A stretch of DNA of 64,000 nt from Asterias amurensis (lineage: Eukaryota > Echinodermata > Asteroidea > Forcipulatida > Asteriidae). Shown piece by piece: positions 6,898 to 64,000 of the stretch. The notes beneath the pieces are model-generated. The model saw only the letters and a program-made list of their open reading frames with translations, searched no databases and was not told the origin of the DNA. Each line of letters opens with the position of its first letter. Position 1 is the first letter of the stretch. Where the stretch lies: positions 16,679,349 through 16,743,348 of the forward strand of contig NC_092651.1 of the NCBI RefSeq assembly GCF_032118995.1. Reading direction: 5' to 3'. The translations under genes and the position numbers were made by a program.

Positions 6898-7474
6898 TAC
6901 AAAAGAAATGTTAAACACTCTACAGAGCTGCCAACCTTTGCAATCAGGGAGCTTGTGTACAACATTCAGGGAGATGTTCAGTAAGGTCACAGACGGATGG
7001 GAGATTTAACCGAGTCGTTGCGTCCGCACTGGATTTTCTGGCTCGGTTAAACCGACTTGGTCAATCATCCTGGGCACCTTTGGCTCGGTTAAACTACCCA
7101 CGCGGCGTGGGAAAGTTACCCGTCAGGAAAGTTACCCGGGCTGTTAGCACTGGACTTGACTGAAATTGGTAAGTTACCCATTGGCTCGGTTAGTTTGCCC
7201 AAATTAAGTCTAGTGCGAACACGGCTTTCAGTCAACACAGGGATCTATAATCAGGGAGATTTTCAAATTTGTTCATCAATACATGGAATGGGTTTATTTT
7301 CCTGGGAGCTTTCTGCAAAATCAGAGAGTTGGCAGCTCTTATATTATGTACAACAGTAAAACACCCCCCCCCCCAAAAAAAAGAAAAAAAAAAAAAAAAA
7401 AATAGATTTTCACAACTCGCACAAATAGTAAAAAGATCATTTAGCTATTGGAAACGCCAAGGGGAAATATTTAG

Positions 7475-7567
7475 GGCTTGTTCAGATTTGGTTTGGCTTA
7501 CAAAAGTCGCTTTCAATATCAGCATCTATCGATAAGCTGGGGAAAGAAATTATCATCATTACAAGCC
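7475..7567 (-). ncRNA. C/D snoRNA family A, copy A1
   Basis: On the minus strand a 7-bp terminal stem (GGCTTGT...ACAAGCC) brackets a C box (ATGATGA) and a D box (CTGA). An internal CTGA near the middle may be D'. Lies in the intron after exon 7637-7689. Identical in sequence to A2, A3, A4, A6 and A8. Confidence 0.85.
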
Positions 7568-8090
7568 TCTAAATAAAATAAGTTTGTTGAAAAAAACGGG
7601 GGGAAATGTAATCGATCAATAATAGGTTAAACTCACCTTTGACCTTGGTGTAGTGGGTCATGGTCATCATCTCTTGGATTATGGTCAGCCTGAATAAAAA
7701 GTAGCAAACGATTCATTTGCAACTTCAAATAAAATGCAATGGATACTTTTAAATAAAAACATGGCCTCTAGTCCAGAGGTCCTACATTTCCCTTGAAATT
7801 TGAGAATTCGTTCAACCACACTTCGAAACTCATGATGATTTGTGTCCCCCCTCTAATATATCTTCCATGAAATTGTTTTGCAAATATAAACATTCATTTT
7901 GTCAATTGCTCAACGAATGAGTGTCACAAACTCAATTTGAATCGAGTAATCTTTGTGTGGATTTCAAAACTCGGTCGAGAAAGCTACCATTATTTATTAT
8001 TTGTGTGGTTTATTCATCACCCACTCCAATTTTTCAAACTGTGAAGCAGACGGATACAATGGACCCTACGCTCTAAGAGAGTGACATAAA

Positions 8091-8183
8091 GGCTTGTTCA
8101 GATTTGGTTTGGCTTACAAAAGTCGCTTTCAATATCAGCATCTATCGATAAGCTGGGGAAAGAAATTATCATCATTACAAGCC
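8091..8183 (-). ncRNA. C/D snoRNA family A, copy A2
   Basis: 93 nt, identical to A1: terminal stem, C box ATGATGA, D box CTGA. Sits between host exons 8550-8599 and 7637-7689. The flanking intron sequence is unrelated to that around A1, so only the snoRNA is conserved. Confidence 0.85.
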
Positions 8184-8729
8184 ATCGACACCAACTCCTT
8201 AGAATGATTTATTGGGATTCTTCCTCACTCAAACAAGATCCAATGGGAGATTTTGAGGCGCTAGGTGGCAGCAGAGTTACCAGGAAAATGTCCATTGCTT
8301 ACGTGGTTCTGAGCATGCGCACATTACCGAGAACAATTGATTCTACCTGGCAAGTCTGCTGCCACCTAGTGTCCCAAAAGTCCCCTATGATGGTAATTCA
8401 AAACCCAGATTATGATGGTAAGCCCGGTCATTTGTAAAAGCATAATCAATATTAGTGCAGACCTCAGCAGGCATGACATTTTGTTCTTGGGAAAGGGTCA
8501 AACAAGTTTGATTTTCAAAGGAGATAGTTTTCAAACAGAAACTCCTTACCTAACTCTTATCAGCCAACGTTACGATCCGCTTCTTATTTCTTGTAAGATC
8601 TGCAAAAATTAACAAATATCACTTTACATTTCATGTTAAAACTTCATTTCCATCACAACATAGGGAGCCTTAATTATGAACCAAAGGGAGCCCATGTCTG
8701 CCAGTATTTTCTGGACTGTGCAGAGACTG

Positions 8730-9117
8730 AAAGGAACACGTTGCCTTGGATCGGTCGAGTTGGTCTTTGAAAAGCGTTTGTAACCGTTTGCTATAAAATT
8801 GGTATTGTTAGAAAGATGTTGTAAAAGTAGAATACAATGATCTACACAAATACGCCTCAAAATTGCGTGGTTTTCGTTTTACCTCGTCGACTAACATGGT
8901 CGGCCATTTATGGGAGTCAAAAAGTTGACTCCCATAAATGGCCGACTGTGTTAATTCGCGACGTAAAATGAAAACCGTGCAATTTTGAGTGATGCTTGTG
9001 TGGATCATTATATTCTACTTTTAAAACATCTTTCCAACCATATACATTTCATAACAAACGGTTTCAAACGCTTTTTTATAGACCAACTCGTCCGATCCAA
9101 GGCAACGTGTTCCTTTA
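8730..9117. repeat. Foldback MITE family M2 copy in a host intron
   Basis: Palindromic element with the same ends as 2075-2463. It is inserted between U14 copy 1 and the next exon (8550-8599). This explains the unusually long distance between that snoRNA and its 3' splice site. Confidence 0.85.
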
Positions 9118-9218
9118 AACTCCTATATCAAAGCGCTGATAAAACAAAATATTGTGTTTAGTGTTTTGGTAACCATTCAACATCAAAGATATCAAGTTTT
9201 GTGCCAAAGGCAAAGTCG

Positions 9219-9318
9219 GTCAGCTCAGACATCCAAGGAAGTTGAAACCATCATGAAGACCCGGAGGTCTCTCTGGTGGAAACTGCAGATGTTGGGAAAA
9301 AATATCATCATCGCCGAC
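9219..9318 (-). ncRNA. SNORD14: U14 snoRNA copy 1 (SNORD14)
   Basis: Minus strand: stem GTCGGC...GCTGAC, C box in GATGATGA, the U14 hallmark GCAGTTTCCACCAGA (antisense to 18S rRNA, essential for 18S processing) and, just before the CTGA D box, CTTCCTTGGATGT (guide for 2'-O-methylation of 18S, complementary to ACATCCAAGGAAG). One difference from the other copies in the C' region (CATGATGG). Confidence 0.9.
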
Positions 9319-9824
9319 AGAAATTCGCATCTTTGGAACCATCTTTAATAAATCTTGTATTAAGACCAAAGATGCCTATAGAGGAAACTTAATCAAAAAA
9401 GTACAGATTTCACAATTTTGTGAAGTTGTTAAACAGGAAAAAAAACAAAAAAACAAGCAATTTCGCTTGGCAAAATAATATAAGGGCTCTGGTCGTACCA
9501 GTATGAATGACACTCTTTTTTTGACTGGTAACCTGTCACGGTTTTCTTTATGCCAAGCAAGTTTTGTTTGCTTACAAGCTTGTTGAGACTGGGCTCTGCC
9601 GAACATGAGTTCGAGCCAACACTGTAAATAACAGCACTTGGAACATTCAAATCTCTTCTCAAAACTTATCATATGTCACCGGTTTTTAAGGACTAATTTT
9701 GTTGGTTTTTGGTTTTTACTGCGCCCTGAACACCCAGCAAGGTGGATATGTGCGCATTACAAGTAATATTATTATTATTATTAAAGCACACCATATTGCT
9801 ATGATTATGATGACCATGGCTTAC

Positions 9825-9850
9825 CTAATTCCGGATGTCAGAGGCAAAAT
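9825..9850 (-). other. Host-gene micro-exon (26 nt)
   Basis: Bounded by TCCTCAG on the acceptor side and TTAG|GTAAGCC on the donor side. It sits between the introns carrying C1 and U14 copy 1. Short, but both borders fit consensus. Confidence 0.45.
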
Positions 9851-10275
9851 CTGAGGAGAAATGGAAACCAAATGAAATGATTTTGAAAATATTGACTGTT
9901 TTTTGCATAGTGAGGTATCAATATCCATGAGAAATATTTGGCCTACGGTAACACCATGCGAGTATCTACTTGCTGTGCAGACTATGTTCGAGTAGCCAGG
10001 CTGTTCTGGTAACCCATGTTGCTACAAGCTTGGAACATTCATGATCACACAATAGATGGAAAGAAAGCTACTTGGCTGAATGTATAAATATTTAATTGTT
10101 TATGTAATAAGGTCTTCCAAATATTGATTACGGCGAATCAATCTAAACTGGTAAAGCAAAGTGAGATGTCATAACACAAATCGCTATGGTGATACTGACA
10201 ACTCATCTTTCGACGACTCTTAGTGGTTTGTAGGCCCCCAAGATCGAGCCCAGCTGGGCTTATTACTATATAGAC

Positions 10276-10360
10276 ATGGTTCAGATCTCCAAGGTGAAAT
10301 GTGACCCATCACTGTGCTGTACACTAGGGATCAACGGATATAGGGTCTCATCATAACCAT
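10276..10360 (-). ncRNA. C/D snoRNA family C, copy C1
   Basis: Minus strand: stem ATGGTT...AACCAT, C box ATGATGA, D box CTGA. The 14 nt before the D box read TTCACCTTGGAGAT, complementary to the conserved 28S rRNA segment (T)CTCCAAGGTGAA, so a 28S 2'-O-methylation guide is likely. A GTGATGG in the middle may be C'. I cannot assign a SNORD number. Identical to C2. Confidence 0.82.
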
Positions 10361-10589
10361 AATAATGCAAATCTTAAATTTTTGAAATTTCTACCGTTTA
10401 TCAAACGCAAAAACAAATTGAAATAAATAAATGACAAAACCAACCTATTCAAGAGGAATGAGAAATGCTGATATCCCCAGCATCACGTTGGTTGCGTATC
10501 ACGAGACCTGGAAAAGTATCACATATTATCAAGTATTATTTTAAGAGAAGCGAACGAAATTGCTAAATAACAAAGTACAATATTGGGGT

Positions 10590-10780
10590 GAACAAAGAAA
10601 AAATGACCAGAGCGGGGCTTGAACCTGCAACCGCTGGCTTAATGGTCCCGAGGTTCTACCAAATGAGCTATCTAGTGGTCTTCCAATTTTGTCAACTTTG
10701 TTCCCCAAAGTACAATATCTTTGTTCCCAAAGTACAATATCTTTGTTCCCGAAATACAATATCTTTGTTCCCAAGTGAAA
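10590..10780. repeat. tRNA-like fragment plus short tandem repeat
   Basis: An antisense tRNA-like block (GGGGCTTGAACCTGCAACC) is followed by about four copies of a 22-bp unit containing TTTGTTCCCAAAGTACAATA (10699-10770). Both lie in the host intron that also carries A3. Confidence 0.5.
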
Positions 10781-10803
10781 CATTTTCTCGCTTGACCTAC
10801 GGA

Positions 10804-10896
10804 GGCTTGTTCAGATTTGGTTTGGCTTACAAAAGTCGCTTTCAATATCAGCATCTATCGATAAGCTGGGGAAAGAAATTATCATCATTACAAGCC
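10804..10896 (-). ncRNA. C/D snoRNA family A, copy A3
   Basis: 93 nt, identical to A1 and A2 with the same stem and boxes. In the intron between host exons 11319-11357 and 10445-10507. It stands apart from the main A/U14 array, between two family C copies. Confidence 0.85.
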
Positions 10897-11749
10897 TCTT
10901 CACAGGTTTCTAATCATTTGACGGCACACCATGGCTCTCGATCGTCATGTGTTTTAGTATTGGATGCCCTTAGTAAAAACCCTTAGCAACAGTAATAGCC
11001 GTAGCTGTAATTTCAGATACAGTCCTTACATGCCTCGAGTTTTGTTCTCTAAGGGGCACATCATTCTCCCTCTGGTAAAGGGGCATTTCTATGAGGAAAA
11101 TATAAATCTGGATTGGAACTTTGCAAGAAGGCACCGCAGCAAAAGCACAAGGCACCACAGCAAAAGCACAAGGCACCACATCAAAAGCACAGGGCACCAT
11201 GGCAATTGCTGTGGGTGCCGTGGGTTATTTAGGGCATGGCCTTACTTTTCCATAAAATGAAAAGGAACCATGGCAGCATTTAAAAAAAAGAAAAATTGAA
11301 CAAAGTACCTAACCTTACCTTTCATTCACTAGAAAAGACAGATGACGTTGCAATAGCCTGCAAGCAGAGGCAAGAAACTCCATGACGAGATCTTTATATC
11401 TAAGAAAGGAATAAAAGGCTTTTCAACTACTAATTTACAGAGATAATTCCGTACATGAAAAGTTTTATGTTTAGTAAAGCTGTTTATTTTTCAAGAGTAC
11501 ATAATTTACTTTATAAAAAAGAAAGAGAAAAAAAGACATCCATTCTAGTACTGATCTGTGAAAAATAACATGTTAAGTAGAGCTGTTTATTTTCAAGAGT
11601 ACAACATCGACTTAAAAAAAAAAAGGACATCCATTTTAGAACAGGTGTCAAGAATTATGAAAGATTGGTTTAATGCGATCAACCACATAATGCAAAATAA
11701 ATCCACTTTCTGAAGATGTCAAATTATTTTCAGTTTATGTAGTGTGGAC

Positions 11750-11834
11750 ATGGTTCAGATCTCCAAGGTGAAATGTGACCCATCACTGTGCTGTACACTA
11801 GGGATCAACGGATATAGGGTCTCATCATAACCAT
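11750..11834 (-). ncRNA. C/D snoRNA family C, copy C2
   Basis: 85 nt, identical to C1, with a slightly longer stem (CATGGTT...AACCATG). C box ATGATGA and D box CTGA preceded by the 28S-directed guide. In the intron between exons 11952-12028 and 11319-11357. Confidence 0.82.
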
Positions 11835-12159
11835 GCTACAGACAGGACTGCTTTGGCTTAACAACTTTTAATATTTGTTTTCTTCTTGCAAACTTTTATA
11901 AAATTTAATAAAAACTTAATAAAAATATAACAAATCAATGGAGAAACAAACCTGTCAAGAATGAATAAGTTGTGTTGATATCTCTATACTTTACTATCCC
12001 GGTTGTTGTATATCACAGTACCACAGACCTGAAAGATTATCACATGTAATCAAGAAAGTTAACAAAATTGCTCTACAACCAAATACAAGAAAAACATTTT
12101 TTAAATCACCATTAAGGCTTTCGTGGTGCCTAAAGTGACGAGTAACAAAATATACTTTA

Positions 12160-12332
12160 AGCATTGACGTCATCAAGCCGCCATCTTTGAGGTAAACCAA
12201 AGACGAAACATTTAAAATGCACAGATTTTTATGCATAACGCATATAATTGGCCAAATGAGCTGAGCAACCTCCCTTTTACCACCAGGCGAGGGCGCCCTG
12301 CTCAAATGATGTCATATGCATAAGATCCATCA
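12160..12332. repeat. Diverged MITE M7 in a host intron
   Basis: Contains TGACGTCATCAAGCCGCCATC near the left and ATGTCATATGCATAAGATCC near the right. This matches the element at 33318-33503 and, more weakly, 6731-6897. Confidence 0.5.
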
Positions 12333-12448
12333 TAGAAACCTGGTTTGGATTTTGATCAAACAACACAGCACAAATATAGTTGGAACAATTATCAGTAAGG
12401 TGTGCATATATGCATGGAAAAATAATTTCTTGTTTCTTTAGTAAGGGA

Positions 12449-12536
12449 ATGGTTCAGATCTCCAAGGTGAAGTGTGCCCCAACACAGTGTAGGAACAACA
12501 CTAGGGATCAACGGATAAGGGTCTCATCATAACCAT
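12449..12536 (-). ncRNA. C/D snoRNA family C, copy C3 (diverged)
   Basis: Same stem, C box, D box and 28S guide as C1 and C2, and it keeps the internal block TATCCGTTGATCCCTAGTG almost intact. The segment between them is largely different and 3 nt longer. The conserved parts therefore mark the functional elements: one guide before D and possibly a second internal one. Confidence 0.8.
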
Positions 12537-12988
12537 GTGATTTTCATTTTCGTAAAACTTATTCAGATTTCCTGCGCTTCATAAATTTTGGCTAAAATTA
12601 TAAGTAACTGATAATTGAGGTTGATCCAGTTTAGTCACAATAATGTACCATCACCGTAAATTTGGACACAAAAAAAAGCAAAGCATTCACACAAAAATTT
12701 AGTGGCTGTTCAAGAAACCAATGACCAAGAATAATGGTTGCTTGCTATTCAAAATAAATAGGACAGGTTCAAAAAAGTCAATTACATCAGGGGAAAATGA
12801 GATTCAAGAAATCAACTTACCACTTTCATCATCATACAGTGCTCCAAGAAAGATGCTCCGAGATTCGTCTTTTATGCTGGAAAGCCTGATATGAAAATTC
12901 AGAAATCGTCACGGTTACATAAAATAGAAAAAATGTTCGGGAAAAAACCTCAATCTTCTGAATTTGTTTGGAAGCATCAATATATCAT

Positions 12989-13086
12989 TTGGCTAAGACA
13001 TCCAAGGAAGTTTAAACCATCATCAAGACCCGGAGGTCTCTATGGTGGAAACTGCAGATGTTGGGAAAAAATATCATCATCGCCAA
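12989..13086 (-). ncRNA. SNORD14: U14 snoRNA copy 2, D box changed
   Basis: Carries the C box, GCAGTTTCCACC and the 18S guide CTTCCTTGGATGT. The D box reads CTTA instead of CTGA. The terminal stem has drifted to TTGGC...GCCAA but still pairs. 104 nt upstream of the 3' splice site of exon 12821-12885. Possibly a dying copy. Confidence 0.78.
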
Positions 13087-13789
13087 TCTACTTTGATTTC
13101 TTCCTAGTTAATGTATTTATAAATGGTGTACTCTTTATAATCAGATATAAGCCCGATACCATATCCTGTCTGGTTGTACACATGTGTTCCGTTGTTATTC
13201 ATTTCAGTTACGAGTGACACAAGGTATTAACTAGAAATTGAAAAAAGTGTTACATTTTTTTCTTCTTAAATGAATATTTAGCATTTTCACATTCCTTGCA
13301 AGTGCACCACTGGAAGACATCCACAGAGAAACTTTTTTATCTTTTGAGCATTAGCCTAAATATTATGGTTAACATTTTTCTTTACTAGGTATGCGATAAA
13401 GTTATGGCAAAGTAAGGAGTAACCTGCATAGTGCTTATTTTTAATTTAATTTTAAACTTAATTTCCAGTTTCTGTGGCACTATAAAAATGAGGATATGAA
13501 AATTGGGGGTCTGTCAACAAGAAATCGGGGAAAAAAATCCATTCAAATAGCTCATCATGGCCAGAAAAACATCAGCCACAATTTTGTGAACTACGCTCCT
13601 TTTTTGTTTTACAGTCATTGTGTTAAGATTAACAAAAAGGTTTCAAACTTGCTCACATTTTTGATGGTTGCTTTGTATGATCAGCTTGGTATTCCTGTAG
13701 AGTGGGAAAGAAATATAATTATCAATAAAGGTTAGGAATCAATGTCTCCGTCATGGGTTTTTCTTTAAAGAAATAAAAAACACATGTCT

Positions 13790-13882
13790 GGCTTGTTCAG
13801 ATTTGGTTTGGCTTACAAAAGTCGCTTTCAATATCAGCATCTATCGATAAGCTGGGGAAAGAAATTATCATCATTACAAGCC
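13790..13882 (-). ncRNA. C/D snoRNA family A, copy A4
   Basis: 93 nt, identical to A1-A3. Between host exons about 13987-14036 and 13386-13423. Flanks unrelated to those of the array copies to the right. Confidence 0.85.
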
Positions 13883-14177
13883 TTCAAGTCTATTTAATTT
13901 ATGTAGACTGTCTACACCGCAGGAACATCATAATTCCTTTATAGGTTAAATTTCATTAAGATTAAAACACAATTAAGTTGACATACCTTACTTGGTCTTC
14001 AGTTTGATGGGTCGTGCCATTTCTTGCTGATGACTTAGATGGTGAACCAAGCAGGCTTTATTAGACCAGTCTCATCAGACTACAGAGACATAAATAGGTA
14101 CCGAGTTAAAACAAATTATATTTGGTCAACAATCTCAAAAGGGACACTAAATATATAAGAAACAAAGAAATTCAGTG

Positions 14178-14527
14178 TTTAAGACACTGGACACCTTTGG
14201 TTATTGTCAATGGCCACTCTTGTCGCCTTAACAACAACAAAAGTGTGAAAATTTGACTCAATTGCTCGTCGAAATTGCGAGATAATAATGGAAGAAAAAA
14301 CACCATTGTCACACGAAGTTGTGTGCTTTCAGGACCTCAAAATCTCATTGAGGTCTCAAAATCAAATTTGTGGAAAATTACTTCTTTAACAGAAACTAGG
14401 TTACTTCGGAGGGAGCTGTTTCTCACAATGTTTTATACTATCAACAGCTCTACATTGCTCGTTACCAAGTAAGTTTTTATGCTAACAATTATTTTGAGTA
14501 ATTACAAATAGTGTCCAGTGCCTTTTA
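14178..14527 (+). repeat. MITE M1 copy in a host intron
   Basis: M1 element with the usual ends. Its right end (AGTGTCCAGTGCCTTTTAAT) runs directly into the 49-bp tandem array. Confidence 0.75.
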
Positions 14528-14901
14528 ATCTTTGGTGATTGAGTGCCCAACTGAACATAGTGTCCAGTGCCTTTTAATCTTTGGTGATTGAGTGCCCAAC
14601 TGAACATAGTGTCCAGTGCCTTTTAATCTTTGGTGATTGAGTGCCCAACTGAACATAGTGTCCAGTGCCTTTTAATCTTTGGTGATTGAGTGCCCAACTG
14701 AACATAGTGTCCAGTGCCTTTTAATCTTTGGTGATTGAGTGCCCAACTGAACATAGTGTCCAGTGCCTTTTAATCTTTGGTGATTGAGTGCCCAACTGAA
14801 CATAGTGTCCAGTGCCTTTTAATCTTTGGTGATTGAGTGCCCAACTGAACATAGTGTCCAGTGCCTTTTAATCTTTGGTGATTGAGTGCCCAACTGAACA
14901 T
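14510..14901 (+). repeat. 49-bp tandem repeat, eight units
   Basis: Eight essentially identical 49-bp units starting AGTGTCCAGTGCCTTTTAAT and ending CCAACTGAACAT, 392 bp in total. The first 19 bp of each unit are the terminal sequence of the adjoining MITE, so the array grew from the MITE end plus flank. The long minus-strand frame here (14770-14967) is a product of the repeat. Confidence 0.95.
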
Positions 14902-14967
14902 CATCCACACGCATTCATGCATGAGCGTACTAAGAACCAACACCAAGTTACTACACGTTATGGTCAT

Positions 14968-15067
14968 GTCAGCTCAGACATCCAAGGAAGTTGAAACCAT
15001 CATCAAGACCCGGAGGTCTCTATGGTGGAAACTGCAGATGTTGGGAAAAAATATCATCATCGCTGAC
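14968..15067 (-). ncRNA. SNORD14: U14 snoRNA copy 3
   Basis: 100 nt with a perfect six-pair stem GTCAGC...GCTGAC, C box, GCAGTTTCCACC, 18S guide and intact CTGA D box. The MITE and tandem array at 14178-14901 now separate it from its 3' splice site. Confidence 0.9.
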
Positions 15068-15275
15068 AAAATTATGTTTTCTCAAAAACAAACTAAAAAT
15101 TGAATAAAACACTTACCTTAACTCCTCAGTATTCCTGCATACTTGTACACAGTATTCCTGCATACTTGGACTCCTATGAAGGTAAATAATAAATATAATA
15201 GAACTTTAGTTGGGCAACTGAGAAAAAAAGATTTGGGCGGTATTGTTAACACACCAGTACAGGAACGATTCTGGG

Positions 15276-15368
15276 GGCTTGTTCAGATTTGGTTTGGCTT
15301 ACAAAAGTCGCTTTCAATATCAGCATCTATCGATAAGCTGGGGAAAGAAATTATCATCATAACAAGCC
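15276..15368 (-). ncRNA. C/D snoRNA family A, copy A5
   Basis: One base from the A consensus, between the stem and the C box (TTATGATGA instead of TAATGATGA). 103 nt before the 3' splice site of exon 15117-15173. Confidence 0.85.
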
Positions 15369-15562
15369 ATTGAATAGAAATGTACAGATTAATTTTTCAA
15401 ACAGGACTAAATCCTAAAATCTTTAAACTTTCTTACCTATTCTTTCCACAGGCATCTTCACGTGTTTCTTGAACTATCTGCAAGAAACAAATCAATCAAA
15501 CTCCATAAACAAAAACATGAAATATAATCAAAGTTTAAGTTCAGATTAACTCCTATTTTTTG

Positions 15563-15662
15563 GTCAGCTAAGACATCCAAGGAAGTTTAAACCATCATCA
15601 AGACCCGGAGGTCTCTATGGTGGAAACTGCAGATGTTGGGAAAAAATATCATCATCGCCGAC
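15563..15662 (-). ncRNA. SNORD14: U14 snoRNA copy 4, D box changed
   Basis: C box, 18S antisense elements and stem are intact, but the D box is CTTA. 86 nt before exon 15437-15477. A CTGA occurs a few bases further 3' inside the stem strand, where it is unlikely to form a proper C/D motif. Confidence 0.78.
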
Positions 15663-15706
15663 AAAACATTGTTTGCTTAACAAAAAATAAAATGTAATAA
15701 GCTTAC

Positions 15707-15781
15707 CATTGGTTCATATACTATCATGTGATCGTTACTCGACTGCAAAGTAATGACTGCCAAAAATAGAAGCATTGTTAT
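15707..15781 (-). other. Host-gene exon in place of a type-1 exon
   Basis: Acceptor TTACACAG and donor AATG|GTAAGC. It occupies the position that a 57-nt type-1 exon has in the neighbouring units but has unrelated sequence. One frame is open and hydrophobic (ITMLLFLAVITLQSS), though exons on either side do not continue it. Confidence 0.4.
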
Positions 15782-16149
15782 CTGTGTAAAAAAAAAGAAG
15801 AAAGTAAAATGACAATAAAAAACACATATACATGGTTAATTGGCAGCAGAGTGTTTTGGTCAACAATGTTCCATGTTTATAGTGGAGTGGGTGGGAAGGG
15901 ATTCCTGTTATTATAGGATCTAGATTCAGACTATAAGCAGTCGTAAGCAAAACTTTTAAGGCCTCATTCATAGTTTTCTGATTTATCCCAAGGAAAATAA
16001 AATAAAAATAAAAATAAGAAAACAGATTTCAAGTCGTAAGAATATCATGCATCTATTCTAAATAATAGCGATGAATGCTATTGTTCAAAGTAAGAATATA
16101 AAATGGACCACTTTTGTTGTGTGAGAAGGGGACAAATTGATCATTATAA

Positions 16150-16242
16150 GGCTTGTTCAGATTTGGTTTGGCTTACAAAAGTCGCTTTCAATATCAGCAT
16201 CTATCGATAAGCTGGGGAAAGAAATTATCATCATTACAAGCC
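16150..16242 (-). ncRNA. C/D snoRNA family A, copy A6
   Basis: 93-nt consensus copy with intact stem and boxes. In the intron between exons 16352-16392 and 15707-15781. The 300 bp between it and the latter acceptor have no match in other units. Confidence 0.85.
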
Positions 16243-16473
16243 ATTGATCTTAATTCTCATAAAAATGTATAGGTTTACATTTACAATGCGACTATTACGT
16301 TTATTCACCTTGACAATCAATGTAATACTAAAAATCTTGCAATGTTCTTACCCAATCTGTCCACCAGCATCTTCAAATGCTTCTTGAAAAGTCTGCAAGA
16401 AATAAATGAATGAAACTCCATAAACAAATGAAACAAATATAATCAAAGTCGAAATCAAATTAAATAAGATTTT

Positions 16474-16573
16474 ATCAGCTCAGACATCCAAGGAAGTTGA
16501 AACCATCATCAAGACCCGAAGGTCTCTCTGGTGGAAACTGCAGATGTTGGGAAAAAATATCATCATCGCCAAC
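16474..16573 (-). ncRNA. SNORD14: U14 snoRNA copy 5
   Basis: Intact C and D boxes, GCAGTTTCCACCAGA and the 18S guide. The stem is weaker than in copy 3 (GTTGGC against GCTGAT). 82 nt before the 3' splice site of exon 16352-16392. Confidence 0.88.
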
Positions 16574-16780
16574 AAAATTATGTTTTCTCAAAAACAAACT
16601 CAAACTGAATAAAACATTTACCTTAACTCCTCATTCTTCCTGGATACTTGTACACAGTATTCCTGCATACTTGTACTCCTGTGAAGGTAAATGATAAATA
16701 TCAAAGAACTTTAGTTGGGCAACTGAGAAAAAAAGATTTGGGCGGTATTGTTACCGCACCAGTACAGGAACGATTCTGGA

Positions 16781-16873
16781 GGCTTGTTCAGATTTGGTTT
16801 GGCTTACAAAAGTCGCTTTCAATATCAGCATCTATCGATAAGCTGGGGAAAGAAATTATCATCATAACAAGCC
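16781..16873 (-). ncRNA. C/D snoRNA family A, copy A7
   Basis: Same single change as A5 (TTATGATGA), which supports a shared duplication with that unit. 103 nt before exon 16622-16678. Confidence 0.85.
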
Positions 16874-17080
16874 AGTGATCTTAATTATCATAAAAATGTA
16901 CAGAATAATTTTTCAAATGGGACTAAATCCTAAAATCTTGTAACTTTCTTACCTATTCTCTCCACAGGCATCTTCAAGTGTTTCTTGAACTATCTGCAAG
17001 AAATAAACAAATCAAACTCCATAAACAAAAACGAGAAAAACTCATAAAATTTGAAGTTCAGATTAAATTCCTATTTTTAG

Positions 17081-17180
17081 GTCAGCTCAGACATCCAAGG
17101 AAGTTTAAACCATCATCAAGACCCGGAGATCTCTATGGTGGTAACTGCAGATGTTGGGAAAAAATATCATCATCGTCTAC
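17081..17180 (-). ncRNA. SNORD14: U14 snoRNA copy 6, changed 18S antisense element
   Basis: Boxes and the D-proximal 18S guide are intact, but the invariant CAGTTTCCACC reads CAGTTACCACC, and the distal stem strand is GTAGAC instead of GTCGGC. Pairing to 18S would be interrupted. 88 nt before exon 16953-16993. Confidence 0.8.
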
Positions 17181-17386
17181 AAAATTATGTTTTCTCAAAA
17201 GCCAACTAAAATTGAATAAAACATTTACCTTAAATCCTCAGTATTCCTGCATACTTGTACACAATATTCCTGCATACTTGGACTCCTATGAAGGTAAATG
17301 ATAAATATAAAAGAACTTTAGTCGGGCAACTGAGAAAAAAGATTTGAGCGGTATTGTTATCACACCAGTACAGGAACGATTCTGGA

Positions 17387-17479
17387 GGCTTGTTCAGATT
17401 TGGTTTGGCTTACAAAAGTCGCTTTCAATATCAGCATCTATCGATAAGCTGGGGAAAGAAATTATCATCATTACAAGCC
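17387..17479 (-). ncRNA. C/D snoRNA family A, copy A8
   Basis: 93-nt consensus copy. 102 nt before exon 17229-17285. Part of the roughly 600-bp repeating unit. Confidence 0.85.
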
Positions 17480-17941
17480 ACTGACCTTAAATAAAATGTC
17501 TTAAAAATGTATGGAAAAAAAATCAGACTGTTGTGTAAATTCAACTCTGGAAATTAATCTATTTCCTAAAGATCTTGTAATTTCCTCACCCATTCTTTCC
17601 ACAAGCATCTTCAAATGTTTCTTGAAGGATTATCTCGCATACCTGTAACACCGTAGAAGAAAGTACACAATTAATCAAAGTTATCAAAAAATGGAGATAC
17701 AAATTTGGACAGTACTGTAATTACACTGGGAAAACAGGATCAAGCCTACATTTAGCAAAATTATATCACTGTGAGTTTTAAATAACTTTTTCGTTCAAAT
17801 TTGGTTTGTCAACACAAACTCTGGTTTGTGTTCTCTGTACTTGTTAAGAATCAAAGTGATTGAAACACGCCTCAAGTCAATTTTTATTTTTTTTTAAATT
17901 AAAAGAAAAAAAGAAGAAAAAATATGCAAAAAAAAGATTTT

Positions 17942-18041
17942 GTCAGCTCAGACATCCAAGGAAGTTGAAACCATCATCAAGACCCGGAGGTCTCTCTGGT
18001 GGAAACTGCAGATGTTGGGAAAAAATATCATCATCGCCGAC
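17942..18041 (-). ncRNA. SNORD14: U14 snoRNA copy 7
   Basis: Full set of U14 elements: stem GTCGGC...GCTGAC, C box, GCAGTTTCCACCAGA, guide CTTCCTTGGATGT and CTGA D box. Lies between exons 18093-18138 and 17590-17642. Most upstream U14 in the transcript. Confidence 0.9.
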
Positions 18042-18235
18042 ATAATAATTGCGAAGAAAAAAAAATTAAATGAAAACAAATTATAAACTTACAAGTTTCT
18101 TTTTCTCCCAATTGTCTTCGTACTCCTTTTCCTTTTTCCTAAAAAATATATAAAACAAAAAGTATAAACAAATAAAGTACGAGACCATTTTGTTGAAAAA
18201 GATTTTAGAATTTGTTTACTCAGTTGAAACAAACA

Positions 18236-18328
18236 GGCTTGTTCAGATTTGGTTTGGCTTACAAAAGTCGCTTTCAATATCAGCATCTATCGATAAGCTG
18301 GGGAAAGAAATTATCATCATAACAAGTC
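18236..18328 (-). ncRNA. C/D snoRNA family A, copy A9
   Basis: First snoRNA of the transcript, in intron 1, 98 nt before exon 18093-18138. Two changes from consensus: TTATGATGA at the C box flank, and a stem base that creates one mismatch (GACTTGT against ACAAGCC). Confidence 0.83.
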
Positions 18329-19206
18329 CTGCCCAGTAAATTAGTTTTAAATCTATATTTTCTTTAAATCGACAATTTATAGTTGATACAGCTGTGTCAG
18401 TATGCAAACAAATCAGCAGCAAACTGCACAGTGCTGATGAAGTTTTACAACATCGAGCGTCTGCATTGGACATTTCATAAAATTACACCAAAAAAAGCGT
18501 GCACAATTTTTGTTAATTAATTAATGTACACGCCAAACATTTTAAGTGAATAAAGGGGAGAAATTGGAAAAAGTTTCTGTATCTTGCCACCACTTTTTCA
18601 TTCGCCTTGAAATAAAACAGCATATTTACTCAAGTTAGACTTAGAATATTTCTTTTGTTAAAAAACTTTTTTATTTACAACTAAGGAATTCAAGATGCCC
18701 TTTCCTAAATAGGACATACAAATTAATTGTTATATTTTAAAAATATTTTACACTACACAGCACTACACTACAGCCAGCACAACAGCCCGTTCCTATAAAA
18801 AAATACTTAATTTTAACTTAAGTATGATTATGAATTTCAAATTCAATTCAGTTTAGAACACACATCAGAAAAGAGAAAGTATACTATCTTATATGTTTTT
18901 TTTATGTTCAAATCAAAGTCACACTGTGTTCATCAATTAATGTTAAATTTGCTATTAGTACAATAATGCGAAGCAAGAGTCAAAGTCAAAGAGAACTTGA
19001 TGTGGACCGCCACGCGCGCAAAGGCCGCACGCATGGTGCGGTTGGGTAATCCACCGGCCCGTACACGTGGTGTCGTCGTCTGGCGACCTGTGTGTGTTCG
19101 GTTTTTTTAATACGTGAATGAAGATGAAGTTTACGGACTTTGCTTAGTTCATTAACACAAACAAGATAACCACCAAACCAATATAACTTCTGAATATCAT
19201 GCTTAC

Positions 19207-19522
19207 GTAAACTTCATGATGGTCAAACTGCTGTCGGAAGGCGTAAATGCCTCCGAAAAGAGGGAATTTTCGAGGACGAGCTGAGTGTTCACCATCAACC
19301 GGTCCTGCTTCCATCACGCGGTGCAGCCAAAAGACCATACAAATTCTGCTGTGCGTGCGTGTTTCTCCGTTCTCCTCGCAAATTTCACTGTTGTGTACAA
19401 GGGTGGGTACCAGGCAAAACACGCCTTGCAATTGATAAGAGCGCCCTCTTGTGTAAAGTTTAGCCCCCGCCCTTTCCCTTCTCTTGTTCCTGCCCGTTGT
19501 GCTCGGGAGGGGAGGGGAGGGG
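19207..19522 (-). promoter_or_regulatory. Candidate first exon and promoter of the snoRNA host gene
   Basis: A GT donor (TTTAC|GTAAGC) ends an exon at 19207. Upstream on the same strand, TATAAAAAATATT (19524-19535) is followed by the pyrimidine run CCCCTCCCCTCCCCTCCC (19505-19522). This would suit a 5'-TOP start, which is usual for snoRNA host genes. An open frame (19144-19431, containing RPRKFPLFGGIYAF) reads through the exon and could mean the first exon is coding. I do not recognise that peptide. Confidence 0.35.
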
Positions 19523-43800: not shown

Positions 43801-44413
43801 GGTTGATATAAGGCATCATTATTTTTTTCCCAATTCAAAGAAAAAGGCATAATAGCGTGATAACTGGTAAGCAGAGGATAGACCCAGTGACTGGGGCGCT
43901 GTGTATTCATGTTAGAAATTTTGACTTTTGAAAATGCAAATGTCAAAACAAAATTGTTAAAAATGAGTACTGGGGGTACTGAGCCCCAGTCAGTTACTGG
44001 GTCCTGGGTCGAACACAGTAACGACACAGGGGCTCTGCTGTACTCATTTAAAATTTGTTTTCATTTACTTTACCTGCATAGTTATTTATAAAATATTACT
44101 GTTTACACTACAGAGAAATGAGAGATGAGGATGGACTTTGATTGGAATGAACCTCATTGGGAGTTATGTTTAAATTCAAGTTAAAAAAGAAAGCGACATA
44201 GTCTTTTAATACGAAGAAACTATAAATAAATAGTGAACTTGCGGGAACCATGTGTAAATCTCTTAAGGTGAGTGTTGGCTCTGAAAAGAGCCGGTTTGGT
44301 CTCGACGTTTCGAACAGTATACTCTGCTGGTCTTCAGGAGGAAGAATAGTCTTTTAAGTTTTCAACTTCTTTACAACTTCTTTTGATTTTTAACATTTCA
44401 GGGGAAAGACAGC
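40862..44413. promoter_or_regulatory. Divergent interval between VSP and ANKLE2 start codons
   Basis: It contains a SINE-like block at 41395-41690 with an internal CTCCTGCCGTCGGCAGGAG hairpin, a CpG-richer patch at 41995-42125 that could be a promoter, and two small foldbacks ending in CCCAGTCACTGGGTC (42685-42775 and 43880-44010). No further gene is visible. The 5' UTR exons of both genes are probably here but cannot be fixed. Confidence 0.4.
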
Positions 44414-45465
44414 ATGGAAGAAATCAAAGCACAACTTTCGAAGCTCACCGTAGAGGAATTACGGTCCAAGCTTACGGCATGTGGTCAAAAGCCGATCCCA
44501 ATTACCAAGACAACTCGTAAGCTCGTGGAACGCCGCATCGCTAGCTACCTTTGGGAGCAACAAGGAGGAGGAGAGGTAGAGAAGGGAACCCAAGCAGGTC
44601 TCAGCGACGCTGGAAGTCATGTTGATTCAACAGATGCTGGGTCAGGAACGTCGTCAAATCCCACAAACACTGAACAATCTAGACTTACTGTTAGGTCACA
44701 AGCAGATGTTGACGCCGTTTGCAATGAGCAAAATACCCCCCAAAAGGGAATCCCTGTCGTTACAAACTACTTTGCAGTTTGTATTCCATCTAAGATTGAC
44801 ACCAATAGTGCTGGAGTTGATGAGCAAGATTCAACAAGTGCTGTGAAAAATTCAGGTATGCAGACTTTTATTATATGTGACCTGTGACATCACACGTTTA
44901 CAAAAGAGCCATAGGGCCTGGACTTCCTGCAGGCACATTTTGTACACAGCTCAATGGAAGAAAATATCAAATCTTATATTTTATGGAGATTGCGCTGTCT
45001 AATTCTTATGTACTCTTGATATGATGAAAGGGGGCACATCTCAAAACTTGTCCAGCTTTTACTTCAACAACTCTTTATGGAAATTATGACACAAAATGTC
45101 AACTTTCCAATATGACCAGTGCAGTATCTTGCCTGCCAGAAAATCCAAAGACTGCACAATGTCACACTTATTGTAAACAAAGCTCACATGGTCTATATAA
45201 ATTTACACTTACCTCATAGGGTGCCCTTTACCACAGAGAAAATGCCTTGGTGCCCTTGCCCTTTCAAAACGAAGCCTCAATGTTGTACTTTTATCTAGAT
45301 GAGATTCTAATCTACCAGGATCGCAAGGAGGCTCTGACCATCGCCAAGAAGAACAAAGGGGCACGGTTTAAGGTCTTCAAGACAAAGGAAGAGGCGGAGA
45401 CATTCGCTAAGTCAAATCAGGATCTCAGTACACCCAAACCACCCTCAGAACCTTCGTCAAATCAG
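44414..45465 (+). CDS. ANKLE2: ANKLE2 exons 1-2: LEM domain and RNase-H-like segment
   Basis: Residues 1-48 form a LEM helix pair ([17 protein letters not shown], then [20 protein letters not shown]), the BAF-binding fold. Residues about 112-195 include [10 protein letters not shown] and [20 protein letters not shown], equivalent to the VYYGVC and GSRFKAFSTREDAEKFA segments of human ANKLE2, a small fold first named in plant-virus viroplasmin. The exon 1-2 junction splits an aspartate codon (G|AT). Confidence 0.92.
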
Positions 45466-61746: not shown

Positions 61747-64000
61747 CACATCGTCTATACTAAAGTCAGGTTCATAAAGTTCACATCAGTTGACCTGTGC
61801 TGAACTCCTGTGAACCATTCACTGCAAAAACAGGCATGTGACGTCAAAATTGGTGTCGCATTCGCATATTCTCCGGAAGTATGAGCCGAGCTCTATATTT
61901 TGTAGCTGCAGCTCACAACTAGGCCCTACTCATCCACCTTTGTCTCGGCCAAATCGTGAGACTGAACAATGTGGCAGGGTTAACCCTGTTGTCTTCCTTC
62001 TTTCTAACCTTTCTGGTACTCCAAAATGTGAACCATTGATACTCTGTAAGACATAAAGGGAAATGGCAGGCATGCATGGTATGCTTCCTAATTTAGTCCA
62101 TTTTCGAAATGTTGTGCGCGTTGAATATTATGAGATTTTTTTCAAACAGTTTACAAAAAACCATCAACGCTCCTTTCATATGTAGATAGGTCCCAGTACT
62201 CAATAAGATTTTTTATTTTATTTGTTCGCCCAGGCTCAAATATCATGGGTGAAAAGTAATCCAAAAGTATACCTTACATGACGATGTCCCAACAAATAGT
62301 TTGGTCATTCATAAGTCTTTTCTGTACTCTCATAATCAATTTGGCCTATTTTTTCAGAGAGTCCTTTTATCTTTATTTATGGACAAACCCCCACTTTACA
62401 ATTGCCAAACAATATGCTGGAAGTGTGAATGGTTTAGTTATCTGCGCATGCTTTTTAAATGCATACAAGGCGTGGTATCGCATTGCAGGAAAGCCCAAGG
62501 CAATTACTATGCAAAAACACGCTGATTTTGAAAGCTGTAACTATTAGGCAAAATACAGCAAGTAGGATTTGAAACTTTGCATGGTGGAAATACGATAAAA
62601 GGTTTGCGGTAACACACCATGTAATGATAATCTCTAAATGAGTTGGGGTGGTTCTGAAAAGAACCGTTGGTTTCAACTTGATGTTTCGATCAGTATGCTC
62701 TGATCGTCTTCTGGAGAAAGCTGGACTCTACAAAATACAGTAGCAAGTTTAAACACGTGCCTTAGCAATGCATGTACATATGAACACAGTTTAAACTTGT
62801 TGACACTTTTGCATGAAACGGACAGTTGTTAACAGTTCACGCACTATACAATTGTCGATGTTATGTACATATTTTTGATACGAAAAGGGTTACAGAAGAG
62901 GCGAACTTTTTGATACGAAGGGGTAACCGACGAGGCGAAATTACTGGAAAAGTTTAGTTTCGTTTTTGACTTGGTTTGCATCAAATTGTCCTGCTAATGC
63001 CAGCAGCCATATTGATTTCGATTGACTGCTCTCTCACCACCGGACATGCTGGGTGGTCTAGTGGTGAAGATCTAACCTAGAATGCGGGGGTTCGCTGGGT
63101 TCGACTCCCACCCGAGTAGTATAGGCCCCTGGGAGTTTTCTCCTGCATGACTTTGAAAAGCACGAGTATACATGTACATTGTAAATAGGTAAAAACAAAA
63201 TAAGATTCTTTATATCTCCGATGCAATGAATACGTGTATTTAAACACGGAAAGTATCTGATCACACTTACTTAAAATTTGCTGTGAATAATGTTTCAGTT
63301 GAAACTTGGCAATGTCTATGCAAGAAAATTAATGTACAGATCGGCAATAGGATGCAGTGTTGGCGTTTTCATACGGATTAAGGGTGGACGAAAGGGAGAA
63401 CGAAAGGGATCTACACAATGCAAGGACTTCAAACACTATGTGGACTTATACACACGTCCACACAGTGTTTTATTTTGTACAGTGTTGAAGAATATGATTT
63501 TTCTGAAGTGCACGAAACAAATGAATTCGTCCATAGAGTGTATGCTCGAAGAGCTGTGTTTGTTTGCACCAGTACTCTAGCTTAAAATATGCAAAATAAT
63601 AAAGTAAAAGTAAAGCATGATATTTATGTTTATAAGTGTGTAAGCAGTAAGCACCCACACTGAAATGAGTTTTTAATTATGTGCCTGCAGGTGTCTATAC
63701 TCATGCCCCTGCATGTAAAAAGTATAAATATATTATGAAGTTTTTTCTATTGTGATTTAAGTGTGTCCTGTTTCAATTGCTGGTAATTGTTCTGTTGTAA
63801 TGTTGTAATGCATGAATGAGGTGAAACTCTTCGGGGTGCGTGGTTAGCGCCCCCTCTCGGCACAGTCTGATAATTGTTTAACTCGGTCTAGACAGTTACA
63901 CTGTACGGTTCCTTATCAATATTTGAGATACATTTATTACTATCGTATGCCATAATTGTTGACTTTGGTGACAAAGGGTGAAACCAGGTGGCGGATACCC
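61747..64000. other. Right-hand intergenic stretch
   Basis: Open frames of 89 codons (62278-62547) and 96 codons (63290-63580) show no recognisable motif. 62565-62720 holds a repeat with AGAACCGTTGGTTTCAAC, also at 39045-39200 and 44275-44340. 63050-63120 looks like a tRNA-derived SINE head (GGTGGTCTAGTGGTGAAGAT with GGTTCGACTCCCACCCGAG). Confidence 0.45.

Follow-up and report, generated by a model that had tools for sequence, protein, structure and literature searches.

A predicted non-coding host gene in Asterias amurensis with 19 intronic box C/D elements, in which probable SNORD12/snR190-type and U14 copies alternate

In Saccharomyces cerevisiae a single dicistronic precursor yields the small nucleolar RNAs (snoRNAs) snR190 and U14; there snR190 is described as a chaperone of pre-60S particles that is not responsible for methylation of G2395, and the role of U14 lies with 18S (PMC8536666; for this and the other papers cited here by PubMed Central number, the statements draw on excerpts). 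In Schizosaccharomyces pombe snR107, the named orthologue of snR190 and of human SNORD12/B/C, is intronic in mamRNA, lies upstream of U14 and guides the equivalent Gm (PMC11971394). That snR107-U14 locus is kept in related Schizosaccharomyces, and in 2025 its conservation with an intronic snR107 was described as not evident in more divergent organisms (PMC12508059). Cluster V of Neurospora crassa co-transcribes CD16 (snR190/HBII-99) and CD37 (U14) from a UHG-like host (PMC2780460). In chicken the two families have separate hosts, with three copies of U14 in HSPA8 and four of HBII-99 in one expressed sequence tag (EST) (PMC2653536). Mammals hold large SNORD113/114 and SNORD115/116 arrays, and understudied genomes might hold more (PMC11028025). 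Here we analyse a stretch of 64,000 nucleotides of Asterias amurensis (contig NC_092651.1, positions 16,679,349 to 16,743,348; hereafter the window), which contains a predicted snoRNA host gene that combines U14 with a probable SNORD12/snR190-type family.

On the minus strand, 20 short exons and 19 introns were predicted, from about 19264 to about 7298. All 19 introns are of the form GT...AG, and each holds exactly one box C/D element. Along transcription the elements run as six successive pairs of A and U14, followed by C, C, A, C, U14, A and A, where A and C are two further families; the gene thus contains nine copies of A, seven of U14 and three of C. The notable point is that the amplified unit is the pair known from fungi, in the order found in both yeasts. 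A preliminary description of this DNA, made from the sequence alone, had already given the same order and one snoRNA per intron, and both were reproduced exactly. Its extent for the host, 7475..19522, is corrected here, and because it left families A and C unnamed it missed that probable SNORD12/snR190-type and U14 elements alternate. It also called the repetition of three families in one gene unusual, and we do find three families in one host, although repetition of a single family was already known from chicken and mammals. Exon borders were chosen by eye and then extracted, and both transcript ends are predictions. The features, in order of transcription, are as follows.

19207..19264, minus strand: exon 1, with a start of terminal oligopyrimidine (TOP) type, CCCTCTTTTCGG, at 19264 and the first AUG at 19217; start predicted
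18236..18328, minus strand: snoRNA 1, family A (SNORD12/snR190-type, probable), intron 1; Rfam and family search
18093..18138, minus strand: exon 2; GT-AG borders
17941..18042, minus strand: snoRNA 2, U14 (SNORD14), intron 2; Rfam 65.6 bits
17590..17642, minus strand: exon 3; GT-AG borders
17387..17479, minus strand: snoRNA 3, family A, intron 3; Rfam and family search
17229..17285, minus strand: exon 4; GT-AG borders
17081..17178, minus strand: snoRNA 4, U14, intron 4; Rfam 56.3 bits, below the cut-off of 64; terminal stem partly broken
16953..16993, minus strand: exon 5; GT-AG borders; the first-AUG reading frame ends here
16781..16873, minus strand: snoRNA 5, family A, intron 5; Rfam and family search
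16622..16678, minus strand: exon 6; GT-AG borders
16475..16574, minus strand: snoRNA 6, U14, intron 6; Rfam 64.1 bits
16352..16392, minus strand: exon 7; GT-AG borders
16150..16242, minus strand: snoRNA 7, family A, intron 7; Rfam and family search
15707..15781, minus strand: exon 8; GT-AG borders
15563..15663, minus strand: snoRNA 8, U14, intron 8; Rfam 61.8 bits, below the cut-off; D box CTTA
15437..15477, minus strand: exon 9; GT-AG borders
15276..15368, minus strand: snoRNA 9, family A, intron 9; Rfam and family search
15117..15173, minus strand: exon 10; GT-AG borders
14967..15068, minus strand: snoRNA 10, U14, intron 10; Rfam 66.7 bits
13987..14079, minus strand: exon 11; GT-AG borders
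13790..13882, minus strand: snoRNA 11, family A, intron 11; Rfam and family search
13657..13694, minus strand: exon 12; GT-AG borders
12990..13085, minus strand: snoRNA 12, U14, intron 12; Rfam 64.9 bits; D box CTTA; two-sided change in the terminal stem
12821..12885, minus strand: exon 13; GT-AG borders
12449..12537, minus strand: snoRNA 13, a diverged family C copy, intron 13; Rfam and family search
11952..12028, minus strand: exon 14; GT-AG borders; interval not above shuffles
11749..11835, minus strand: snoRNA 14, family C, intron 14; Rfam and family search
11319..11399, minus strand: exon 15; GT-AG borders
10804..10896, minus strand: snoRNA 15, family A, intron 15; Rfam SNORD12 36.5 bits
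10445..10507, minus strand: exon 16; GT-AG borders; interval not above shuffles
10275..10360, minus strand: snoRNA 16, family C, intron 16; Rfam and family search
9825..9850, minus strand: exon 17; GT-AG borders
9219..9319, minus strand: snoRNA 17, U14, intron 17; Rfam 65.7 bits
8550..8599, minus strand: exon 18; GT-AG borders
8091..8183, minus strand: snoRNA 18, family A, intron 18; Rfam and family search
7637..7689, minus strand: exon 19; GT-AG borders
7475..7567, minus strand: snoRNA 19, family A, intron 19; Rfam and family search
7280..7312, minus strand: start part of the last exon (E20), with AATAAA at 7298; 3' end predicted

The elements were collected in two ways. A mechanical scan of the 64 kb, which required a terminal stem of at least 4 together with a C box and a CTGA D box, returned two rows on the plus strand and 19 on the minus strand, the latter comprising 16 distinct A, U14 or C elements, two alternative ends and one unrelated match (53648); that this row count equals the element count of the preliminary description is a coincidence. 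Three U14 copies escaped the scan (two through a CTTA D box, one through a weak stem), and family searches raise the total to 19. The 19 minus-strand C/D elements proposed earlier are thus borne out by the scan, the family searches and Rfam together, and a C box is present in all of them.

Splice borders were assessed for each of the 18 intervals between elements by the best exon-like acceptor/donor pair, which is the pair that the script scores highest and not necessarily the exon drawn by eye. This pair was equalled by three or fewer of 40 dinucleotide shuffles in 16 intervals, and by none in 11; the short exons with consensus borders claimed earlier are supported in these intervals, but those of E14 and E16 were indistinguishable from shuffles. 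The predicted spliced RNA is 1136 nt long if it starts at 19285, and its longest open reading frame (ORF), 61 aa, was reached in length by 25% of 1000 dinucleotide shuffles. Since no spliced ORF exceeds chance, and with one snoRNA per intron and a start judged TOP-like by eye, the host looks like a non-coding gene of the UHG/GAS5 class. The GAS5 host has a TOP-like start and an early stop, and its RNA is a substrate of nonsense-mediated decay. Here the first-AUG ORF (56 aa, exons 1-5) stops in exon 5 of 20, and a stop so early would make the spliced RNA such a substrate too, which we regard as suggestive only.

Relationships among the exons point to the unit of amplification. Exons E3, E5, E7 and E9 form one paralogous set and E4, E6 and E10 another, and a 277-nt repeat of 95% identity (66% in its third copy) connects neighboring units, which is why we take the unit to be exon-A-exon-U14. 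Two further repeats were seen in introns: eight 49-nt tandem copies matching at 100% in intron 10 (14508-14901, between U14 and exon 11), and a long MITE-like (miniature inverted-repeat transposable element) insertion in intron 17 (8760-9120; GGAACACGTTGCCTTGGATCGG... and its near reverse complement), spotted by eye.

We consider it likely, judging from sequence, that this is a TOP-type non-coding host whose 19 introns each release one C/D snoRNA, so that three guides are made. RNA polymerase II would transcribe the gene, and splicing, debranching and trimming to the terminal stem would free one snoRNA per intron; the joined exons would be a by-product, probably removed by nonsense-mediated decay. 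Acting through methylation or as chaperones, the A RNA would be directed at 28S around the position of yeast G2395 (human G3878), U14 at 18S, and C at another place in 28S. Tandem duplication would have acted on A and U14 as one unit, and snoRNAs for large- and small-subunit assembly would be present in similar gene dose (nine and seven) as a result.

From the C box through the D box (78 nt) the nine A copies are identical, whereas 60 nt of flank, taken 8 nt away and compared ungapped, average 32% identity. Between 7474 and 18328 the identity of the A copies reaches the terminal stem and ends there; the U14 copies of the same gene vary. In an Rfam search of 15 kb against 4227 families, SNORD12/SNORD106 (RF00581) matched all nine copies at 25.5-36.5 bits (E from 1.8e-4 at best to 0.2 at worst), and snoZ103, a plant family, matched all nine at 28.9-29.7 bits. 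The best copy searched alone (121 b) gave SNORD12 at E 1.4e-6. Common to A and the Rfam families matched is UUUCCCC upstream of D'.

Targets were sought in eight eukaryotic ribosomal DNA (rDNA) loci (L001-L008) from assemblies titled prokaryotic, none of them known to come from this species. Nucleotides 3-13 of the A D' element pair with 28S GGGGAAAGAAG through 10 Watson-Crick pairs and one G-U. The target GCGGGG[A/C]AAGAAG occurs in 8/8 contigs, in its fully pairing form in seven, and the eighth differs at one position. With CUUA as D', guide nucleotide 5 lands on the equivalent of yeast 25S G2395 and human 28S G3878; we infer that G2395 is the third G of GCGGGG, the sole reading that fits the placement of yeast C2392 in its immediate vicinity (PMC8536666). 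The same nucleotide-5 register was found, at the same offset and with one-mismatch D' boxes, in the Rfam consensus sequences of SNORD12, snoZ103 and DdR2. Family A therefore probably works like SNORD12/snR190 and is probably its orthologue, while not being a member by the Rfam cut-off. The conserved 28S patterns were found in none of the viral contigs. Two observations stand apart: upstream of the G2395 site, AAGCC of A might form additional pairs with 28S GGGCTTGG, which was seen by eye and is not claimed; and eukaryotic rDNA contigs lie inside prokaryote-titled assemblies, among them Actinoplanes solisilvae LAM7112 (L005).

The U14 identity given in the preliminary description held in an Rfam covariance search, in which all seven copies matched RF00016 and five exceeded the cut-off of 64 bits. 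The D guide CTTCCTTGGATGTCT and the conserved antisense CTTCCTTGGATGT upstream of D are both invariant in 7/7 copies. Pairing of U14 with 18S is putative: antisense duplexes of 11 nt were found in L001, L006 and L008, and the fuller U14 target pattern was in none of the eight rDNA contigs, all of them from other sources as far as is known. In the terminal stem 87.8% of cells are paired, against 22-47% with the partner slid, and the copy at 12994 has changed on both sides of the stem despite its altered D box. Within-column shuffles reach the observed pairing in 33 of 500, a point against; with only seven sequences the covariation is therefore weak. Two other ideas were dropped. Seven exact 17-mer matches of U14 in viral contigs were taken as chance, since none of those seven loci matched Rfam at E 0.1 or better. 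A match of about 20 nt between A and U14, beginning at box C, might have meant that U14 had borrowed a SNORD12-like guide, but it is largely box C itself, and vertebrate U14 has a similar stretch.

Family C comprises two identical copies and one diverged copy. Its D guide pairs with the 28S site TCTCCAAGGTGAA / TCAGGTCTCCAAGGTGAAG over 19 nt (two G-U) in L003, 17 in L006 and 14 in L005, and the target-site pattern occurs in 3/8 rDNA contigs. An 18-bp duplex with at most one G-U was reached by 0/300 shuffles at the site and by 0/60 over the whole of L003. The closest Rfam families, Afu_294 at 32.8 bits and snoZ101 at 28.6, fall short of their cut-offs, and the guide is common to both. We take this guide to be that of human SNORD55 (U39-type), directed at 28S C2791; Rfam gave no SNORD39/55 match for C up to E 1.

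How the locus compares with described systems, as far as the excerpts of the cited papers go, bears on its origin. Like the fungal snR190-U14 units, it places both families in one (here predicted) transcript, with the SNORD12-type element upstream of U14 as in both yeasts. The fungi have one pair each, against six A-U14 alternations here; budding yeast excises by RNase III and in fission yeast only snR107 is intronic, whereas here every copy is intronic and the genome is that of an animal. Short non-coding exons with one C/D snoRNA per intron recall UHG and GAS5 hosts, but in chicken the gas5-like host bears a variety of snoRNAs, for example U74, U75, U44, U79 and U47 (PMC2653536), where this gene has nine, seven and three copies of its three families. 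SNORD12-type or U14 copies are likewise repeated in the introns of one host in ZFAS1 (human SNORD12/B/C), in the chicken HBII-99 EST and in HSPA8, with fewer copies and, in chicken, with the families apart. Eutherian SNORD113/114 and SNORD115/116 and rat Bsr share large tandem C/D arrays, repeated introns and non-coding hosts (PMC11028025); they are described as recent and imprinted, whereas here two apparently rRNA-directed families alternate. An animal host with both families was not found in the literature searched, which covered few subscription journals, so that this is weak evidence of absence.

One reading, to which we give somewhat less than an even chance, is that the A-U14 pair is a transcription unit that predates the split of fungi and animals, persisted here in the form of a spliced non-coding host and had both members amplified together, with a benefit from joint 60S and 40S snoRNA output; vertebrates would later have split it between ZFAS1-like and HSPA8-like hosts. 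An even balance of probability goes to a second possibility, that the linkage is secondary: mobile intronic snoRNAs would have met in one host in this lineage and then been co-duplicated. SnoRNAs are reported to switch hosts (PMC3511168, PMC12508059), the separate chicken hosts fit such movement, and the third family, C, also resides in this gene. A secondary origin sits less easily with the co-transcription of both families in three fungi, with the order of A before U14 shared with both yeasts, or with the A/U14 alternation that occupies the first 12 introns.

A different doubt concerns output. The array might be partly dead, a mixture of recent and decayed copies from which few snoRNAs are made, which we think unlikely though far from negligible. 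Several features weigh against full function. The preliminary description had a terminal stem and a CTGA or CTGA-like D box throughout, and most copies do have them, but the D box is CTGA in 17/19 elements and CTTA in the U14 copies at 15569 and 12994, and the stem of the U14 at 17174 is partly broken; fewer than 19 elements may therefore be functional. Moreover, in 9/19 cases the element and the 3' splice site are 303-894 nt apart. Decay is at odds with the identity of 9/9 A copies within diverged flanks and with the invariant U14 D guide, though the upstream GCAGTTTCCACC element is altered in one copy (17174).

Family A could also be an unrelated C/D guide that resembles SNORD12/snR190 near box C, which would make the link to the fungal pair coincidental. 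All nine copies fall under the curated cut-offs (SNORD12 43, snoZ103 44), and snoZ103 scores more bits than SNORD12 in four of them, SNORD12 being the top family in the other five. Guide nucleotides 1-2, adjoining D', are unpaired, and the D' boxes used to compare registers were picked by us. Shuffles often form an 11-bp duplex at some place in an rDNA contig: 18/60 equalled that of A over a whole contig, against 3/300 over the 60 nt at the G2395 site, and for this reason the assignment rests on homology and register and not on complementarity alone. The second antisense element of snR190/snR107 (large-subunit domain I) was not found above shuffles in any of the seven contigs holding the region (one of eight is without it); in human SNORD12 this element is described as relatively small (PMC11971394). 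On the other side stand the E value of the best copy among all Rfam families searched and a guide register equal to that of three of them, including DdR2, which by its Rfam title comes from Dictyostelium. We therefore judge an unrelated guide to be improbable, and orthology of A with SNORD12/snR190 is kept as probable.

Finally, that the host is a protein-coding gene merely carrying snoRNAs is very improbable and was rejected, because the first-AUG ORF across exons 1-5 is its one favorable sign, the longest spliced ORF is of chance length, and internal exons (E2-E19, 26-93 nt) are not a multiple of 3 in 11/18 cases.

Elsewhere in the window, a histone 3' untranslated region stem-loop (RF00032, 35.2 bits, cut-off 34) was found at 62626-62670 on the minus strand, and a tRNA-Ser (AGA) at 63047-63119 on the plus strand. 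A Pfam search of 14 window ORFs gave one LEM domain (PF03020, 37 bits), in an ORF at 44387-44887, and one match below its cut-off. We take the LEM-domain ORF to be perhaps ANKLE1-like.

The locus appears to be a non-mammalian intronic array of 19 snoRNAs, one family of which is perfectly homogenised between diverged flanks. It bears on the view that snoRNAs move freely between hosts. It also makes testable the idea that co-production of U14, for the small subunit, and of a SNORD12/snR190-type RNA, for the large subunit, may be under selection.

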